Below are positions 985-8,907 of a DNA stretch of 64,000 bases, in pieces. Positions within the stretch are counted from its first letter, which is position 1; each line of letters begins with the position of its first letter. The notes under the pieces were generated by a model, which was not told the DNA's origin, did not search any database, and saw only the letters and a list, made by a program, of their open reading frames with translations. The translations under genes were made by a program, and so were the position numbers. The DNA comes from Streptomyces peucetius (lineage in GTDB: Bacteria > Actinomycetota > Actinomycetes > Streptomycetales > Streptomycetaceae), in assembly GCF_025854275.1 (NCBI RefSeq), contig NZ_CP107567.1, positions 6,448,001 through 6,512,000 on the forward strand, read 5' to 3'.

Positions 985-1713
985 ATGGTTACTTCCGGAG
1001 CAAGCGACACCGATGAGAACACCGGGGCGCGGTCGGCCACCAAGGCCGCGGCGCGGCAACTGCTCGCGAAACTGGGGGCCGGGGGACTGTCCCTGGACGC
1101 CGTTGCCCGGAGCAGCGGTCTTGCCGTCACCGATGTGGAAGCCGTCTTCCCTCATCGGGACGACCTGCTGACCGCGCTGGTCATCGACGCCTACAACGAG
1201 TCCGGTGCCGCGATGGAGGCGGCCGATCAGGCCGCCTCGGACGCCCGGGCATCGGCGGGCGCACGGCTCCTCGCGGCTACTCGCGCCCTGCGGCAGTGGT
1301 CCTTCGACAACCCCGCCGAGTTCGCACTCATCTACGGCTCGCCCATTCCGGATTACCACGCCCCGCAGGACACGGTCCCGCCCGCCTCGCGCACCCCCGC
1401 GGTCCTTGCCGGCATTGTGCGTTCGGGTCTGGAGGCCGGGGAACTCACGCCACCGCGGCGGGCGGTGCCCGGACCTCCGTTGCTGCGGCCCGAGGCCGTG
1501 GAGCTCTTCGGCGGCCTGCCCGAGGCACCATTCTCGGACATCATCGAGCGCGGCATCGTGCTGTGGAGCAATCTGATCGGGCTCCTGGTCTTCCAGGTCT
1601 TCAGCCGTACGCACGACAGCGTCAGGGACGAGACCGCGTTCTTCGACTACGCCATCGCCGTGGCGGCCGAGAGCGTCGGACTCGTGGTTCCCCCGGGCGA
1701 GACCTCCGACTGA
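985..1713 (+). CDS. TetR/AcrR family transcriptional regulator
   Basis: A 242-residue protein starting at ATG 985; the open frame extends upstream but loses family character there. Residues about 10-60 form the TetR-type helix-turn-helix: a first helix ending AARQLLAKLGAGGLSL, then LDAVARSSGLAVTDVEAVFPHRDDLL, matching the usual recognition helix followed by F-x-x-(R/K)-x-x-L. The C-terminal half contains REFA-like NPAEFALIYGSPIPDY, typical of the WHG-type ligand-binding domain of actinobacterial TetR proteins. The gene is followed 70 bases later by the 7-TM protein gene on the same strand, so it could control that block, although separate transcription is also possible. Ligand unknown. Confidence 0.85.
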   Translation: MVTSGASDTDENTGARSATKAAARQLLAKLGAGGLSLDAVARSSGLAVTDVEAVFPHRDDLLTALVIDAYNESGAAMEAADQAASDARASAGARLLAATRALRQWSFDNPAEFALIYGSPIPDYHAPQDTVPPASRTPAVLAGIVRSGLEAGELTPPRRAVPGPPLLRPEAVELFGGLPEAPFSDIIERGIVLWSNLIGLLVFQVFSRTHDSVRDETAFFDYAIAVAAESVGLVVPPGETSD

Positions 1714-1783: not shown

Positions 1784-2938
1784 GTGAACACCACTAGAAC
1801 CCTCCTGTTCGTCATCTCGGCGCTCTCCTCGTACGCCGCGCTCGGCTACCGGCTGTCCCAAGTCCGGCGCAGCTGGCGGGACAGCGCCTACCGCGCACTG
1901 GTCGTCACGCTGGTGTTCCAGTGCCTCACGTTCACGATGGGGGCGGTGGCCATGGGAGGCGACAGCTTCCTGGGCGTCGGCAACCTCGCCATCCTGCTGA
2001 TGCACCTGTCGGCGGTCGCCTTCTGCGTCAGCGCGCAAATCATCCTGCTGCGCTGGGCCACCGCCGACGAGGTGGCGATACGCAGGACCCGCTACTGGGT
2101 GATCACCGGCATCGCCCTGAACGTACTCCTTGCGGCTCTGTTCCTTCTCGCCGACGGTCCCGGCCGGCCGGCTTCGGACTTCGACGGCACGGACCGGCCG
2201 CTGGTCCTCACCTACCTGCTGTTCTTCGTCGTGTCCCAGGCGGTTCCGTGCGTCACCATCTTCCGCCAGTGCGGCCCCTACGCCCGTATGACCGACAACG
2301 CCTCGCTGCGCCAGGCCCTGCGGCTGCTGTCCGTCGCCGCGGTGATCCTCTTCCTCTACTGCACGGCCAGGGCGGTCAACATCCTCACCGGTGCGGCAGG
2401 GATCGACATCGGAGTCTGGCGGGTCGCCGCTTCCGTCTTCAGTGCGGTGGGCATCGTCGTTCTCTCTCTCAGCCTGACCCTGCCCTCGTGGGGCCCTTCG
2501 GCGGCCAAGCTCCTGGCATGGGCGCGTAGTTACCGGTCGTACCGGGCGCTGTACCCGCTCTGGCGGGACCTGTACGAGGCCTCCCCGGACATCGTCCTGG
2601 AGCCGCCCGGGACTTCGGTCTCCGACCTCGACTACCGCCTGCACCGGCGGGTCGTCGAAATACGTGACGGATGGCGGGACCTGCGCCCCTATATCGACCG
2701 CAGCACCACCAACGGTGCTGCCCGACCGGGCTCGAGTGCGAGCGAGGAGGCCCGTCAGGCGTTCACCGAAGCAGCGCAGATCAGACAGGCGCTGCACGCC
2801 AAGCGAACCGGCACCGTGCCCGACGACAACGCGGACGCCGGCGACTTCGAAGACCGCGATACGGACAACTTCACCGCGGAAGTAGCCTGGCTCACCCAAG
2901 TCTCGGTCGCCTACAGTAAGCTCGGCGACGCGAGTTGA
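1784..2938 (+). CDS. MAB_1171c-family putative transporter, 7-TM membrane protein
   Basis: A 384-residue protein with a GTG start at 1784. Seven hydrophobic segments are visible at about residues 5-22, 38-58, 63-92, 104-124, 140-160, 181-201 and 210-233. They are followed by a soluble tail of about 150 residues containing YRSYRALYPLWRDLYEASP and LDYRLHRRVVEIRDGW, which are hallmarks of the actinobacterial family named after M. abscessus MAB_1171c. The family label says transporter, but the transport role is not proven; a 7-TM core with a cytosolic tail would also suit a receptor. It precedes the HTH/ImmA pair, which commonly accompanies this family in Streptomyces (from memory). A hairpin follows the stop codon. 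Confidence 0.8.
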   Translation: MNTTRTLLFVISALSSYAALGYRLSQVRRSWRDSAYRALVVTLVFQCLTFTMGAVAMGGDSFLGVGNLAILLMHLSAVAFCVSAQIILLRWATADEVAIRRTRYWVITGIALNVLLAALFLLADGPGRPASDFDGTDRPLVLTYLLFFVVSQAVPCVTIFRQCGPYARMTDNASLRQALRLLSVAAVILFLYCTARAVNILTGAAGIDIGVWRVAASVFSAVGIVVLSLSLTLPSWGPSAAKLLAWARSYRSYRALYPLWRDLYEASPDIVLEPPGTSVSDLDYRLHRRVVEIRDGWRDLRPYIDRSTTNGAARPGSSASEEARQAFTEAAQIRQALHAKRTGTVPDDNADAGDFEDRDTDNFTAEVAWLTQVSVAYSKLGDAS

Positions 2939-2943
2939 GAGCT

Positions 2944-2979
2944 CCCGCCCGGTCCGCATCCCCCGTCGGACCGGGCGGG
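2944..2979 (+). terminator. Hairpin downstream of the 7-TM gene
   Basis: Perfect 13-bp arms CCCGCCCGGTCCG (2944-2956) and CGGACCGGGCGGG (2967-2979) enclose a 10-base loop and lie 5 bases after the stop codon, followed by CTTGTT. It is likely a factor-independent terminator, which would separate the 7-TM gene from the HTH/ImmA pair. Confidence 0.7.
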
Positions 2980-3265
2980 CTTGTTCCCCCGATTTCCCCC
3001 GTTCCCCCGTTCCCCGTTTCTCCTCGGCCGGGGCGGGCGCGCCTCCACCCCGGCCGGCCTGGCCCACCACGTTCCCGAGAGCCGGACCGACATCGCCGAC
3101 CGGCCGGCCGCCAACTTGACCACCCCCGTAAGCCAAGTTAGCTGACAGCTATCGGCGGTTCCCAACGTTGGCGGACTCTCGGTCAATTGTCAACTGCTCG
3201 CTAATCTGCGAAACTTGGAAATAGCCGAGGGCTATGCCGAGGAGGTGACGGGAGGGAGATTCACC
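2980..3265 (+). promoter_or_regulatory. Control region of the HTH/ImmA pair with two short palindromes
   Basis: No gene is seen. After a pyrimidine-rich run (CCCCCG/TTCCCC repeats near 2985-3022), the sequence becomes unusually AT-rich at about 3130-3230. Two palindromes lie there: TAGCTG-A-CAGCTA at 3139-3151 and CCAACGTTGG at 3162-3171, followed by CAATTGTCAAC. These are candidate operators for the downstream HTH protein. Promoter hexamers could not be fixed with confidence. Confidence 0.4.
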
Positions 3266-3709
3266 ATGTCCGAGACCGAGGACCGGCCGCTGCTTGCGGT
3301 GCGTCTGGACGACCTCTTCAAGACGGTTCGCCCGAAGGGCCGGCACTGGACCAATGCCGAGGTGGCGGAGGAGCTGAAGCGGGCACACCCCGAACTCAAG
3401 GTCGGTGGTGTGTATCTGTCGCAGTTGCGGACGGGCAAGCGCTCCAACCCTTCCCCCGACCTACTGGCTGCCCTGGCCCGCTTCTTCGGTGTGTCGGTTG
3501 CCTACTTCTTCGACGAAGAGGTCGCCCAGTCGGTGCTCGGCGAGGTCGCCGCCATCGAGGCACTGCGGCAGGCCGGGGTCCGTTCCGTGGCCATGCGCGC
3601 GGCCGGGATGAAGAAGGAGAACCTCCAGGCCATCACGGCCATCATGGATCAGTACCGGCACATGCAGGGTCTTCCGCCCGTCGCCGACCCCCCGTCGGAG
3701 GCGGAGTGA
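3266..3709 (+). CDS. XRE-type helix-turn-helix transcriptional regulator
   Basis: A 147-residue protein starting at ATG 3266, chosen because GGAGGGAG (3251-3258) sits at proper distance. Residues about 12-80 form a Cro/CI-like HTH: WTNAEVAEELKR, then VYLSQLRTGKRSNPSPDLL and LAALARFFGVSVAYFF, the usual five-helix pattern in which residues near YLSQLRTGKR contact DNA. The C-terminal part (about 85-147) is helical and may be the dimer or partner interface. Its stop overlaps the next start (GTGA), so it is translationally coupled to the ImmA-like peptidase. In ICEBs1, an HTH repressor (ImmR) is cleaved by the adjacent ImmA; the same logic is plausible here but is inference. Confidence 0.85.
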   Translation: MSETEDRPLLAVRLDDLFKTVRPKGRHWTNAEVAEELKRAHPELKVGGVYLSQLRTGKRSNPSPDLLAALARFFGVSVAYFFDEEVAQSVLGEVAAIEALRQAGVRSVAMRAAGMKKENLQAITAIMDQYRHMQGLPPVADPPSEAE

Positions 3710-4287
3710 GAGGTACGAGGAAGGAACGGTCGGCCGAACAGGACCGCCACAGTCAGCTCAAGAGGCTCCGCAGGACCGGCGCGCAGCGACTCGCCGAACT
3801 CGAGCTGCCGGAGGTGGCCGATGTGGCCGAGCTGTGCCGCCATCTCGGAGAGATCCGCGACCGCCCGATCACGTTGGTCCCGATGCAGATGCCCGCGTCG
3901 CATCCGTGCGGGATGTGGGTCGCCGCACGCGACGAGGACCTCGTCTTCTACGACGCCAACACGACCAGCGCGCATCAGGAGCACATCATCTTGCATGAGC
4001 TGGGCCACATCATCTGCTGTCATCGGGGCGCGGGCCTGCTGGACGAGGCGACCGCCCGGCTCCTCTTCCCCAACCTCGACCCCGACCTCGTACGCGACAT
4101 GCTCCTGCGCGCGACCTACGACGACGTTCAGGAACAGGAGGCGGAGATCATCGCCTATCTGCTCTCCCAACGAGTGGGCGGCACCGGGCGACAGCCCGGC
4201 GACGCTCCCCCTGCCGAGGAAGCGGCGGGCCGCGCGGACTCCGGAAAGAACGCCATGCTCAGCCGGATCGAACGCACCCTGATCTGA
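3706..4287 (+). CDS. ImmA/IrrE-like zinc metallopeptidase
   Basis: A 193-residue protein whose GTG start at 3706 overlaps the HTH stop by four bases. The zinc motif HELGH is at residues 97-101, preceded by EHIIL, and the downstream EQEAEIIAYLL (about 143-153) supplies the likely third metal ligand, as in the ImmA/IrrE (COG2856) family. Such proteases cleave partner HTH repressors in response to a signal. Similar Streptomyces genes are often labelled toxin component, but nothing here indicates a toxin. The gene ends 10 bases before the converging PKS gene. The C-terminal tail after residue 155 looks disordered. Confidence 0.8.
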   Translation: MRGTRKERSAEQDRHSQLKRLRRTGAQRLAELELPEVADVAELCRHLGEIRDRPITLVPMQMPASHPCGMWVAARDEDLVFYDANTTSAHQEHIILHELGHIICCHRGAGLLDEATARLLFPNLDPDLVRDMLLRATYDDVQEQEAEIIAYLLSQRVGGTGRQPGDAPPAEEAAGRADSGKNAMLSRIERTLI

Positions 4288-4297
4288 CGTGAGTCAA

Positions 4298-7200
4298 TTA
4301 CTCCGTGGCGGATGCCACCTCCTCGGCCAGGATCGACACGGTCCTGCGGATGTCGTCCTCGCCGTGTTCGCTGGTGACGAAGAACCGCAGCCGCGCGAGG
4401 CCCTCCTCCACGGCGGGATGGAAGATCGGATCTGCGATGACGCCCCGGTCGAAAAGCCGGTCCGCGACACGCAAGGTCTTCGTCGAGCTGCCGAGAAGGC
4501 ACGGAACGATCGGTGTGTGGGCACTGGATCCCGTCGGCAGACCGGCCGAGGCGGCAAGGCCGAGGAAGAGCTCCGCGTTGCGCCGCAGAGCACGCACCCG
4601 GTGCGGTTCCGCGGCGATCAGCTCGGCGGCGGCCAGCGCCGCGGCCGCGTTGGCCGGGGTCAGGCCGACGCTGTAGACGAAGCCCGGCAGTGTGTGACGC
4701 AGCCACCGCACCATCCGGGCCGAGCCGCCGAGGTAGCCGCCGCAGCCGGCGAATGCCTTGGAGAGGGTGCCCATCCAGAGATCCACGTCGGACCGGACGA
4801 CGCCGTGGAACTCGCCGACGCCGCGGCCGCTTTCGCCCACGGTGCCGATGCTGTGCGCCTCGTCGACCATCAGCAAGGCGCCGTAGCGTTTCTTCAGTTC
4901 GATCAGGCCGGGCAGGTCGACGAGATCGCCGTCCATGCTGTAGGCACCCTCGACGGCGATCAGCACCCGCCTGAACCGGGACCGGTTGATCCGCAGCAGG
5001 TGCTCCAGGTGGCCGAGGTCGTTGTGGGCGAACGGGCGCCGCGCCGCGCCGGACAGAGCGCAGCCCTGCAGGATGCTGTCGTGGGCGAGCGCATCGTGGA
5101 CGACGAGGTCCCCCGCGCCGACCAGATGCCCTATCGCGGTGACGTTCGTGGCATGGCCGCTCACCAGCGTCAGGCAGTCCTCGACGCCGAGGAAGTCGGC
5201 GAGAGTCCGCTCGAGTCCTACCGTCAGGTCCCGTTCACCGGAGAGCACACGGCTCGCGGAGACCGAGGTCCCGTACCGGTCCACTGCCCGGTGCACGGCC
5301 TCGTTGACCGCCGGATGGCCGGAGAGCCCCAGGTAGTTGTAGCTGCCGAAGGAGACGTACGACCGGCCGCCGATCACCGTCGTGGCGCGGATGTTGCCCT
5401 CGTGGACCCGGAAGTACGGGAAGTCCGCACCACTGCCGGTGATCGCGCTCAAGCGCTCCTCGAACTGCCGCACCTCCGGGAAGTCATCGACGCATGCGGC
5501 GTCGGGGCCCCAAGCGGCCGGTGTCTCCTGCGGCAGGGGTTCACCGGGGATCGGTGCCTCCGTGAGCCAGGGGGTGGCCAGCGCGATCAGCCGCTCGATG
5601 GTGAGGCCCGGCGAGAACATCTCCTCGGTGCGGAAGCCCGGTATCCGCTTGCCGATGTTGACCTCCAGCTCCTGCAGCATCAGGGAGTCGAAGCCGAGAT
5701 CGGTGACCAGCGACATCCGCTCGCTCAGGTCGGAGAGGGGGAAGACTCCGGCCCGCGACACCTCTTCGAGCACGATGGATACGGCGGATGCGGCACCGTC
5801 TCGTGCCGCCGCGGGGACGGCCGCGGGCGCCGCCGCGGGCGACTCGACCGGAGCGGGCTCGTCCTCTCCCACCGCGTCAGGAGTGTGGGAGGTGTCCCCG
5901 CTCTCGCGAGCCGACTCGTCCACCGCCCAGTGGTGGCGGGGGGCGAGCGGACTCGGCGGCAGGGTGCACGGGGGTATTCGCTCCGTCACCGGACGCAGCC
6001 CCGGGCCGGTGACCGCGCGCCACGCGAGCTCGGTCAACGCGGCGGTGCGCGCCTCGACGGACAGCGCGTCCGGTGCGGGTACAGCGACCTCCGAGGGTTC
6101 CCCCGGGGACACCGTGCCGGCCACCTGCCCCGGCCCGAGCTCTCCCGTACGGCCCGCGGCCAGGCTCTCGGCCGCCGCGGTCAGCCTGGCGACCGCGTCA
6201 GCGGTGTCCTCCGCCACCAGCGCAAGGCGTTCGGCGAAGGGAGCCCGGTGCGCCAGGGTGGCCGCCACCTGGGCCGTCGGCAGCTGATCGGCGGCCATGG
6301 TGCGCGCCAGCTCCCCGGCGTAGCGGGCGAGGCCGGCCCGGTCACGGGCGCTGAGGACCAGGAGGTGCGGCCCCGCGTCCGGCGCGGGGATGCCCGGTGC
6401 CGTGGTGCATTCCTCCACCACCAGATGGACACCCGTGCCGCCGAAGCCGAACGCGCTCACTCCCGCCCGGCGCGGCTGTCCGGACTCCGGCCACGGGACC
6501 GCCTTGGTCGGGACGGTCAGGTGCGCGCTGTCGAGACCGGAGCTGTCGGCCAGATCGAACTCCGGCTGCGGCGGTATCACTCCCCGGTGCACCGCCAGGA
6601 CGGTCTTGATCAGTCCCGCCATCCCTGCGGCGTTGAGGGAGTGGCCGACCACCGCCTTGACCGCGCCGAAGAAGGCGGGTGCGCCGTGCTCGCCACGCAG
6701 CTCACGCAGCACACCGACCTCGACGGGATCGCCGACCGCGGTCCCGGTGCCATGGGCCTCCAGATACCCCGTCGCATCCGGGGCGAGGCCGGCATCCCGG
6801 TAGGCCCGGCGCAACGCCCGGAGCTGACCGGACGGCTGAGGATTCATGCCACCGTGCACGGTCCCGTCGTTGGCCGTTCCCACGCCCCGGATCACCGCAT
6901 AGACCCGGTCGCCTGCCGCCAGCGCGTCGGCCAGGGGGCGCAGGACCAGGACCCCGGCGCCCTCTCCCAGGACGAAGCCGTCGGCCTCCGCGCCGAACGG
7001 CAGGCACCTGCCGCTGCGCGAGATGGCGCCGACCCGGCACAGTCCCACCAACAGGTCCGGGGTCAGGATGAGTTGGGCGCCGCCCGCGAGTGCGATACGG
7101 CATCGTCCCGCGCGCACGGCGTGCACGGCGTTGGCCACGGCCATGAGTCCACCGGAGCATGCCGAGTCCAGCGCATAGCTCTCGCCGTGCAGATCGAACA

Positions 7201-7801
7201 CCGAACTGATCATGTTCGGACCCATGTTGAGCAGGAGCCCGGACACGGATGTGCCATGCAGTCCGTCGACCGCACGAACCGTCCGGGCCCACCGAGGGTC
7301 GGCCATCCGTGCCCCGAACTCCCCGCCGGCCAGCTGACGCATCCGGATCTGCACTGTGCTGATCTCGCGGTAGCCGCTCTCGGTGAGCGACGTGATCACC
7401 GAGGTCTCCTCGCGGTCGAAGCCCTCGGCCTCCCACCCCGCGTCCTGGATCGCCTCGCGGGCGAGGTCGACGAGAAGGCGGTGTTGCGGGTCCATCGACC
7501 GGGCCCGCCGTGGCGGGATGCCGTAGTGCGACGCGTCGAAGTGACCCACGTCCGGCAGCAGCGCCATGGTGTCCGTATAAGCCGCGGACGTGTCACGGAA
7601 GTTGTCGCTGAGGAAGGCGCCGCTGCGCCACCGCGAGTCCGGAACGGTGGCGAACTGCGCCTTCGGCGCCTCCAGGAGCCGCCAGTACTGGCTCACATTC
7701 CGCGCGCCGGGAAAGCGGCAGGCCATTCCCACGATCGCGACGTCATCACGCCGCGCTCCCGCTGAATCCGCCATGGAATCCGTCCCTGTCAGAGTTGTCA
7801 C
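4298..7801 (-). CDS. Ketosynthase-ACP-alpha-oxoamine synthase fusion (AT-less type I PKS)
   Basis: An 1167-residue enzyme. The ketosynthase (about 19-455) has its catalytic triad: C215 in DSACSGGL, H350 in EAHGTGT and H387 in VGHSLNAAG. Residues about 478-630 resemble KS-AT and post-AT linkers (LSARDRAGLARYA, PLAPRHHWAVDE), but no acyltransferase with its GxSxG core lies between them. An ACP follows (about 665-745) with Ser706 in DLGFDS for the phosphopantetheine arm. The C-terminal 390 residues are a PLP-dependent alpha-oxoamine synthase with DEAH (980-983) and the PLP lysine K1015 in TLSKAF. Such domains, as in RedL and RedN of prodiginine synthesis, condense an ACP thioester with an amino acid and release CO2. 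Start: GTG 7801, or ATG 7774, which has AGGGACGG upstream. It is co-directional with the SDR gene 19 bases upstream. Confidence 0.9.
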   Translation of the reverse strand: MTTLTGTDSMADSAGARRDDVAIVGMACRFPGARNVSQYWRLLEAPKAQFATVPDSRWRSGAFLSDNFRDTSAAYTDTMALLPDVGHFDASHYGIPPRRARSMDPQHRLLVDLAREAIQDAGWEAEGFDREETSVITSLTESGYREISTVQIRMRQLAGGEFGARMADPRWARTVRAVDGLHGTSVSGLLLNMGPNMISSVFDLHGESYALDSACSGGLMAVANAVHAVRAGRCRIALAGGAQLILTPDLLVGLCRVGAISRSGRCLPFGAEADGFVLGEGAGVLVLRPLADALAAGDRVYAVIRGVGTANDGTVHGGMNPQPSGQLRALRRAYRDAGLAPDATGYLEAHGTGTAVGDPVEVGVLRELRGEHGAPAFFGAVKAVVGHSLNAAGMAGLIKTVLAVHRGVIPPQPEFDLADSSGLDSAHLTVPTKAVPWPESGQPRRAGVSAFGFGGTGVHLVVEECTTAPGIPAPDAGPHLLVLSARDRAGLARYAGELARTMAADQLPTAQVAATLAHRAPFAERLALVAEDTADAVARLTAAAESLAAGRTGELGPGQVAGTVSPGEPSEVAVPAPDALSVEARTAALTELAWRAVTGPGLRPVTERIPPCTLPPSPLAPRHHWAVDESARESGDTSHTPDAVGEDEPAPVESPAAAPAAVPAAARDGAASAVSIVLEEVSRAGVFPLSDLSERMSLVTDLGFDSLMLQELEVNIGKRIPGFRTEEMFSPGLTIERLIALATPWLTEAPIPGEPLPQETPAAWGPDAACVDDFPEVRQFEERLSAITGSGADFPYFRVHEGNIRATTVIGGRSYVSFGSYNYLGLSGHPAVNEAVHRAVDRYGTSVSASRVLSGERDLTVGLERTLADFLGVEDCLTLVSGHATNVTAIGHLVGAGDLVVHDALAHDSILQGCALSGAARRPFAHNDLGHLEHLLRINRSRFRRVLIAVEGAYSMDGDLVDLPGLIELKKRYGALLMVDEAHSIGTVGESGRGVGEFHGVVRSDVDLWMGTLSKAFAGCGGYLGGSARMVRWLRHTLPGFVYSVGLTPANAAAALAAAELIAAEPHRVRALRRNAELFLGLAASAGLPTGSSAHTPIVPCLLGSSTKTLRVADRLFDRGVIADPIFHPAVEEGLARLRFFVTSEHGEDDIRRTVSILAEEVASATE

Positions 7802-7820
7802 CTGTCATCCGCAGCCGGTG

Positions 7821-8762
7821 TCACCCCGTGCCGGCCAGTCGCTCACGCCACCAGTCCACGGTCGCCCCGACCTGCTCGTCGACCGGGGTGGCCCGTACGG
7901 CGAACGCGGCCTCGTAAGCACTGGAGTCGATGATGAAAGGACGGTCGAACTGATAGCGGAGTTCCTTCAGCTCACGGAGCAACGGAGAGAAGAGTGACGC
8001 GGCGCCGAGCACGGCCGACGGCAGCCTTCGCACCGCGACCGGCTGTGTTCCCGACCGAGCGGCAAGGCGGTCGACCATCTCCCGGACGGACAGCGCGGGC
8101 GCCGTCGGTACATGCCAGGCCCGTCCCCAGGCCCGCTCCTCGACGGCGACCTCGACCAGGGCCCCGGCCACATCGGGGAGATAGGTCCAGCTGTGCGGGG
8201 CGTCAGGGTCCCCGAGCGTGGAGACCGGCTTGCCGCGCAGCAGGCGTGGCACGACCCGCGCGGCCAGATGCCCGCCGTCGGTGACGCCGGGCCCGAAGAA
8301 GTCCGAGGCCCGCACCTCCACCGCCCTGATGCGACCCTGCTCATGCAGTTTCCGCGCCTGCTCCCAAACGGCGGCGCGCACCCGCCCCTTGGAGCCGGTC
8401 GCCGCGAGCGGCAGCTGCTCGGTCATGGGGCCGTCCACCGGACCGTAGCCGTAGAGGTTGCTCAGCATGACCAGGACGGCCCCGGTCGCTTCGGCGGTCT
8501 CGCAGACCGACGTGGCGAGCGGCGGCCAGTCACTCGCCCATCGATGGTAGGGCGGTGCGGCACAGCAGTGGATCGAGGCCGCGCCTTGTGCGGACTCGAT
8601 CAGTCTCTTGCTGTCCGTCGCATCCAACGCGACGTGCTCGATGCCGGGTTCTGGGCTGCGACCCGACTTGGTGACGACTCGTACCGAATGGCCCTTTTCG
8701 ACCAGCTGCCGGGCAGTGGCTGCCCCGGCAGGACCGAAACCTACGACGACATGAAGACTCAC
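7821..8762 (-). CDS. NAD-dependent epimerase/dehydratase family protein (atypical extended SDR)
   Basis: A 313-residue Rossmann protein. The N-terminal GFGPAG (residues 8-13) is the GxGxxG dinucleotide motif. SNLYGYGP and a TEQLPLA segment follow the extended SDR layout, and WTYLPDVAGALVEVA matches the region of the family where the substrate pocket closes. The usual Y-x-x-x-K catalytic pair is not evident: the corresponding stretch reads AATGSKGRVRA, so reduction or epimerisation chemistry may differ or be lost. It is the first gene of a two-gene operon with the ketosynthase-oxoamine synthase and could act on its product, for example at the new ketone. That link is inferred from position. 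Confidence 0.75.
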   Translation of the reverse strand: MSLHVVVGFGPAGAATARQLVEKGHSVRVVTKSGRSPEPGIEHVALDATDSKRLIESAQGAASIHCCAAPPYHRWASDWPPLATSVCETAEATGAVLVMLSNLYGYGPVDGPMTEQLPLAATGSKGRVRAAVWEQARKLHEQGRIRAVEVRASDFFGPGVTDGGHLAARVVPRLLRGKPVSTLGDPDAPHSWTYLPDVAGALVEVAVEERAWGRAWHVPTAPALSVREMVDRLAARSGTQPVAVRRLPSAVLGAASLFSPLLRELKELRYQFDRPFIIDSSAYEAAFAVRATPVDEQVGATVDWWRERLAGTG

Positions 8763-8907
8763 GCTCGCACACTAGCGCGAGCCTGTGACGCTCTTGGGCC
8801 GGGCGCGTCCAGGCGCGGGTGGATCGCCGGATGGTTTCGGCCAAACTTCACGACGGTCCGGTGCCCACCGGTCGCCGGAGCGAGCGCGCGCGGCAGAAGA
8901 AGCCCGT

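Follow-up and report, generated by a model that had tools for sequence, protein, structure and literature searches.

An actinomycete gene cassette that may join an acyltransferase-less aminoketone synthase to a membrane-signalled switch

In this article, I will discuss a block of six genes in a 64,000-nucleotide stretch of the Streptomyces peucetius genome (contig NZ_CP107567.1, positions 6,448,001 to 6,512,000; hereafter the window), which belongs to a genome assembled as one contig of 8,050,611 bases, the scope of all genome-wide site searches below. On balance, I read this block as a co-inherited cassette in which an aminoketone synthase without an acyltransferase (AT) is combined with a membrane-signalled switch. 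The plus strand carries, in order, genes for a TetR-family regulator, a MAB_1171c protein, an XRE-family helix-turn-helix (HTH) regulator and an ImmA-type peptidase, and convergent to these, on the minus strand, are genes for a short-chain dehydrogenase/reductase (SDR) and then for a fusion of ketosynthase (KS), acyl carrier protein (ACP) and alpha-oxoamine synthase (AOS). A first-pass annotation, made from the letters of the window alone, had described the fusion with its key residues beside the SDR, and the seven-transmembrane MAB_1171c protein and coupled HTH/metallopeptidase pair converging on them; the gene content is as described and the catalytic residues are intact, while the TetR gene, absent from that list, is a further member of the cassette. 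The features, in window coordinates, are the following:

985 to 1713, plus strand: TetR-family regulator with a PF13305 C-terminal domain (61.6 bits), co-linear with MAB_1171c
1784 to 2938, plus strand: MAB_1171c/DUF6545 protein with seven transmembrane helices and a cytosolic helical domain; a bundle like that of G protein-coupled receptors (GPCRs) in the predicted model
3138 to 3152, no strand: putative operator O1, TTAGCTGACAGCTAT, proposed from conservation
3187 to 3206, no strand: putative operator-like site O2, overlapping a -35-like TTGTCA
3221 to 3235, no strand: putative operator-like site O3, ATAGCCGAGGGCTAT
3266 to 3709, plus strand: XRE-family HTH regulator (HTH_3; 53 homologues aligned), a probable autorepressor
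3706 to 4287, plus strand: IrrE/ImmA-type metallopeptidase (HELGH and EAE motifs), overlapping the HTH gene by 4 base pairs (bp)
4298 to 7801, minus strand: AT-less KS-ACP-AOS fusion of 1167 amino acids, its end 10 bp from the ImmA stop
6407 to 7747, minus strand: KS domain, about residues 19-465 (PF00109/PF02801; C215, H350, H387)
5912 to 6106, minus strand: scar of the lost AT, with the KS-AT and post-AT linkers kept and the AT core gone (alignment with eight KS-AT-ACP-AOS relatives)
5684 to 5686, minus strand: codon of the ACP phosphopantetheine serine S706 (GFDSLM)
4322 to 5422, minus strand: AOS domain, about residues 794-1160, with Lys1015 (PF00155, 128 bits; PDB matches KBL, SPT and AONS)
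7821 to 8762, minus strand: atypical extended SDR (PF01370, 56.8 bits) with KGRxR in place of YxxxK, upstream of the fusion
8763 to 8781, minus strand: conserved element CGCGCTAGTGTGCG, directly 5' of the SDR start and interpreted as a leaderless promoter

The SDR and fusion genes, with 19 bp between them, look like a two-gene operon. That the whole block is a stable cassette and a functional unit is a conclusion that I hold with high confidence from its distribution among genomes. A genome-collection scan with the fusion, which favours close relatives, gave 73 distinct loci for the best 80 of 324 relatives, and the cassette genes were counted in 59 loci with AT-less fusions (57 such loci, the window and L119, which came from the search with MAB_1171c; two genomes give two contig pieces each). 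The fusion is present in all 59, HTH and ImmA in 56 each, SDR in 54, MAB_1171c in 53 and TetR in 45, and the only loci without HTH and ImmA (L054, L058 and L059) lie on contigs that end inside the fusion. Wherever the contig continues, ImmA and HTH run convergently toward the fusion (56/56), in Streptomyces, Kitasatospora, Amycolatopsis and Catenulispora alike, with a gap between ImmA and fusion of exactly 10 bp in 21 of the 56 and a range of -137 to 1775 bp, the extremes of which may reflect annotation or assembly. The remaining arrangement is looser: in seven Amycolatopsis loci MAB_1171c is found on the side of the SDR, in L020 and L032 it is displaced and inverted, and in Catenulispora L064 and in L119 TetR, MAB_1171c, SDR and fusion all have one direction. 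Outside the cassette, no gene family from a rough clustering of open reading frames (ORFs) occurs in more than 9 of 58 loci and, although six Amycolatopsis loci share some flanks, the flanks vary between loci and so do not explain the overall pattern.

To escape the bias toward close relatives, the test was also run in reverse, searching from ImmA in 101 evenly drawn genomes of the genus. Matches at 1e-40 occur in 11 of these, nine of which (the genome under study included) show at least 68 % identity, and all eight close orthologue loci that were fetched contain TetR, MAB_1171c, HTH, ImmA, an O1-like site and the fusion; seven also have the SDR, and the contig of the eighth ends in the fusion. 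Three weaker matches (45-54 % identity) have HTH, ImmA and MAB_1171c and lack the fusion. Among relatives of the fusion that retain the AT (nine loci), and among seven distant ACP-AOS loci, nothing matches HTH, ImmA, MAB_1171c or SDR at E 1e-5. Fusion homologues that mostly occur without these neighbours would have counted against the first-pass annotation, which survives this check: the AT-less fusions nearly always have them, also when one starts from ImmA, and it is the AT-bearing relatives that go without (9/9).

The fusion itself keeps its catalytic residues. The ACP serine, the AOS residues D980, H983 and K1015 and both KS histidines are invariant in 48 of 48 aligned homologues, of which 47 also have the KS cysteine. 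The AOS belongs to its superfamily by its fold-type I pyridoxal phosphate (PLP) domain, the Lys, Asp and His of the PLP site and best PDB matches to KBL, AONS and SPT, and it scores below the NCBIfam equivalog cut-offs for BioF (323.7 bits against 426.45), KBL (280.6 against 460), SPT (290.4 against 640), ALAS (220.3 against 338.55) and the CqsA/LqsA type (NF005526; 167.1 against 428), the last of which led to rejection of membership in the stand-alone quorum-sensing family. Judging from the chemistry of the superfamily, the fusion makes an aminoketone, as the first-pass annotation had proposed for this KS-ACP-AOS locus, and I hold this with fairly high confidence. With KS and ACP motifs intact and no AT within the protein, the fusion also shows one of the two marks of a trans-AT type I polyketide synthase (PKS), and by alignment it is a derivative of KS-AT-ACP-AOS enzymes through deletion of the AT. 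The nine AT-bearing relatives (loci L065-L074 except L067) encode proteins with KS, AT and AOS motifs. An alignment of eight of them with the window protein and five relatives without an AT shows that the AT-less fusions keep the sequence on either side of the AT, the post-AT motif LPPSPLAPRHHW among it, and miss the AT core (GHSVGEF, FHS). In a tree of the AOS domain with 28 rows, the 12 AT-less rows sampled form a single group (support 100/99), their lost-AT linkers can still be aligned, and the loss probably happened once. The deletion of the core would mean either that malonate is supplied from elsewhere or that the KS uses none. The same tree places the ACP-AOS relatives L075-L081, from planctomycete, myxococcal and other metagenome bins, in a well-separated group.

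What the aminoketone looks like is less clear, and the short-chain product of the first-pass annotation has lost ground, as chain length is not readable from sequence and the AT-bearing relatives lean toward lipids: eight of their nine loci have a gene from one family cluster whose L072 member, the only one scanned, is an MMPL exporter, and four of the nine also share family clusters whose L072 members are FabA-like, SDR/ketoreductase (KR)-like and HMG-CoA-synthase-like. It is conceivable, though doubtful, that the cassette too makes a long-chain, lipid-like (sphingoid-like) aminoketone from a fatty-acyl chain of primary metabolism instead of a short signal or pigment precursor, in keeping with the serine palmitoyltransferase among the PDB matches of the AOS and with the Pseudomonas sphingolipids that are made by a PKS and a separate oxoamine synthase (PMC12134224). 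However, the conserved genes of the AT-less cassette include none of the MMPL, acyltransferase or ceramide type, and the AOS scores far under the SPT equivalog cut-offs.

Literature searches among open-access papers found no described cluster or switch of the same composition, in agreement with the earlier remark that no known cluster matched, and several systems are similar in part. The SgaA/SgaB sphingolipid PKS of Pseudomonas fluorescens MYb115 likewise unites a type I PKS, iterative in that case, with a PLP-dependent oxoamine synthase, but as two separate proteins (PMC12134224), whereas here a single AT-less KS-ACP-AOS protein is accompanied by switch genes. Two prodiginine proteins of S. 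griseoviridis have the domain orders A-CP-KS-AT-PLP and CP-CP-PLP (CP, carrier protein; A, adenylation), D6B3S9 of Streptomyces albus J1074 is a KR-CP-PLP protein, and B3EYK4 is a CP-PLP entry (all in Table 2 of PMC3870968). The prodiginine proteins resemble the fusion in joining carrier protein and AOS within a single chain, to which one of them adds a KS, but they possess an A domain, an AT or a second ACP, none of which the fusion has; D6B3S9, compared by domain order and not by sequence, has its ACP directly before the AOS and a KR where the fusion has the KS. I take the prodiginine proteins to be of the RedL/RedN type and B3EYK4 to be SxtA, in which the ACP is again followed by the AOS and in which, presumably, MT/GNAT loading parts stand in the place of the KS. 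The CqsA/LqsA autoinducer synthases share the AOS superfamily, but are free-standing, CoA-dependent and paired with histidine-kinase sensors, while the conserved neighbours here (TetR, MAB_1171c, HTH, ImmA and SDR) include no sensor kinase or response regulator beside the synthase. On the side of the switch, ImmR-ImmA of ICEBs1 and the XRE-COG2856 modules, as outlined in PMC2701414, also consist of an XRE repressor adjacent to an HExxH peptidase, but here the pair is coupled to a seven-transmembrane protein and a biosynthetic operon, and no mobile-element genes are conserved around the cassette. Closest to the fusion itself are KS-AT-ACP-AOS proteins from Kibdelosporangium, Rhodococcus and Streptomyces. 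Their domains follow the same order and their best-matching segments are 48-55 % identical to it, but they keep the AT, and their loci lack matches to HTH, ImmA, MAB_1171c and SDR. The Kibdelosporangium and Rhodococcus loci are those that share the SDR/KR-like, HMG-CoA-synthase-like and FabA-like genes.

Regulation can be read most clearly at the HTH promoter. O1 is a palindrome whose best site agrees with 13-15 of 15 consensus positions in all 54 HTH promoters (52 by a stricter pattern). Genome-wide, with up to one mismatch allowed, it has one site, and so has the reversed-pattern control. The O2 pattern occurs in 53 of the 54 promoters, the O2 offset from O1 is 51-52 bp in 43/54, and O3 is offset from O1 by 82-83 bp in 43/48, with the strict O3 pattern in only 31/54; at 10.4 bp per helical turn, these offsets are near 5 and 8 turns. 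Autoregulation of HTH through O1-O3 is made probable by this conservation, and I consider HTH with moderate confidence to be an ImmA-controlled autorepressor. Since the operators were found only before the HTH gene, autoregulation is favoured over a shared operator, leaving room for other sites or indirect control, and the first-pass proposal that signal-dependent cleavage of HTH directly switches biosynthesis finds no support in that form. Two candidates were rejected: direct HTH control of SDR-fusion through a shared operator found no support at the sensitivity used, and no TetR operator common to the TetR and SDR promoters was seen. The conservation of CGCGCTAGTGTGCG directly before the SDR start codon is what would be expected of a leaderless start, and I read the element as the predicted promoter of the SDR-fusion operon. 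The TetR start codon was positioned by homologues and has a conserved TACGGT immediately 5' of it. Simple scans found no sigma-70-like promoter at the locus and no terminator in the 10-bp convergent gap, with a single terminator-like site between 1600 and 9000, inside the fusion gene (shuffles: mean 1.9).

Gene content, catalytic residues, co-inheritance, loss of the AT and conserved operator sites are what the sequence itself provides, and the mechanism that I propose is built conditionally upon them. An outside acyltransferase, for which FabD would be the natural candidate, would load malonate onto the ACP of the fusion, the KS with its intact C-H-H would join an acyl starter to this malonate, and the PLP domain would decarboxylatively condense the chain with an amino acid and so release an alpha-aminoketone or a beta-diketo amine that may cyclise. 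The SDR might either finish the product or sense NAD(P)H; KGRxR is found at at least 95 % in 37 aligned homologues (of the 54 loci with SDR) and the catalytic YxxxK of classical SDR reductases is missing, its position having been placed by a weak alignment to 6kv9. Meanwhile, the XRE protein would repress its own operon from three operators that share a face of the DNA helix, as the conserved sites and spacing suggest. ImmA would cleave and so remove this repressor, in the manner known for ImmR, which the gene order and overlap fit, and MAB_1171c, being a receptor-shaped seven-transmembrane protein, would be the foremost candidate for the input, responding to the product or to some other ligand. 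The signal could pass from the switch to the biosynthetic operon by way of TetR, by feedback from the product or by transcripts that run over the 10-bp junction of the convergent genes.

A number of observations weigh against this reading. The distance between ImmA and the fusion is about 1.8-2 kb in L048 and L154, MAB_1171c is locally absent from L009 and L061 and SDR from L032 and L049, and O2 is weak (score up to 8) in 10/54 loci and O3 in 3/48. In 52 promoters each, the best O1-type scores are 8-12 of 15 before SDR (a single one reaching 12) and 8-10 before MAB_1171c, against a 99th percentile of 10 for single background windows, so that control of synthesis by the switch is unsupported by such sites. 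Two of the weaker ImmA matches, L156 and L157, have an SDR 72-74 % identical to that of the window together with HTH, ImmA and MAB_1171c and no fusion, which suggests that the SDR may belong to the switch rather than to the pathway; this paralogous block lies near genes that I take, from the look of their sequence, to be chaplin-like and peptidase-like. These two loci, and the restriction of the operators to the HTH gene, equally fit a rather unlikely alternative in which HTH, ImmA and MAB_1171c form an independent module (for stress, toxin-antitoxin-like or other) that adjoins the fusion without serving it. This would agree with the proposal of XRE-COG2856 pairs as toxin-antitoxin systems (PMC2701414) and with the presence of P450, amidohydrolase, aldo/keto reductase and FAD enzymes among ten scanned neighbours of such modules, yet it has to account for the convergence of ImmA and HTH upon the fusion in every continuing locus of four genera while the flanks vary, and for MAB_1171c being co-directional with SDR and fusion in L064 and L119. 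Finally, the other mark of a trans-AT type I PKS, a discrete acyltransferase encoded in the cluster, is missing from the gene families that recur beside the fusion within about 10 kb, the genome farther out not having been searched for one. This lack, within the protein as well as around it, speaks for a KS that does not elongate and only hands over a ready-made acyl group to the ACP, leaving the AOS to make a simple alpha-aminoketone in a CqsA-like but carrier-bound manner; I regard this as unlikely, considering that the KS cysteine and histidines are so widely kept and that a mere transferase would not need them.

The co-inherited cassette is not a rare one, with a close ImmA orthologue in 9/101 genomes of the genus, and it may be easily overlooked since a fusion without an AT does not resemble a full PKS module. 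Streptomyces hygroscopicus NBRC 13472, for example, carries the fusion (L058), and the available part of a PKS and nonribosomal peptide synthetase survey scoring this strain lists no KS-ACP-AOS cluster, the survey having followed the clusters of another strain (PMC8880029). As the enzyme sits in a two-gene operon that can be expressed whole, the question of the product is directly testable.

The switch, for its part, reaches well beyond the fusion. Its ImmA is an M78 peptidase by HExxH, third Glu ligand and IrrE fold, and its MAB_1171c scores 333.2 bits against the NF042915 cut-off of 100; PDB profile searches with the two alignments gave no match at E 1, and the folds were compared afterwards. 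The MAB_1171c model is a seven-transmembrane, receptor-like bundle with an N-out/C-in charge pattern, but its likeness to GPCRs comes from a predicted structure with a best Foldseek E of 0.0065, and seven-helix bundles can match by shape alone, another reservation about the proposed input. I place low to moderate confidence in MAB_1171c as the membrane input of the HTH/ImmA switch, and low confidence in the product of the cassette as its ligand. A still bolder idea is that MAB_1171c represents a class of bacterial GPCR-shaped receptors acting by way of an IrrE-type protease and an XRE repressor, that this route from membrane to gene is common among Streptomyces and allied actinomycetes, and that here the receptor reads the aminoketone of the neighbouring enzyme, maker and receiver travelling together; taken as a whole this is a long shot. 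Should it be true, actinomycetes would gain a pathway from membrane receptor to protease to repressor, and a family now labelled 'putative transporter' or 'DUF6545' would be explained.

Since MAB-ImmA pairs recur elsewhere, the switch is best seen as a general module. MAB_1171c occurs in 27 of 31 genomes (that of the window and relatives) with 75 matches in total, and an ImmA-like ORF lies within about 1.5 kb of 28 of the 31 matches with loci, where HTH is detectable by profile in 18; the three missing a nearby ImmA are L090, the fusion locus of genome G023 with ImmA about 5 kb off, and L103 and L111, which end early. The fusion is found in only one (L119) of 21 wider MAB_1171c regions (20 fetched and L086), and the notion that the HTH/ImmA/MAB set is special to the fusion is not supported by these counts. 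S. peucetius itself has a second such set at about 7.13 Mb (L086, 6133-10112), beside an FAD-dependent enzyme. Across the phylum, 13 of 149 genomes match MAB_1171c, four over the cut-off and all of these in the same genus, and 14 loci were examined, leaving out L164 and three already known. Six have an ImmA-like ORF (L159, L161, L163 and L170-L172), with L161 and L163 being matches from another family of the class, under the family cut-off, flanked by ImmA and HTH. No ImmA-like ORF was seen at L160, L162, L165-L169 and L173, of which L160 is over the cut-off but partial, L173 is partial and below it, and the remaining six are weak and likewise under it. A GTCAAC box also recurs upstream of the HTH genes in distant HTH-ImmA-MAB sets (L122-L126 and others) and resembles a shared -35 element.

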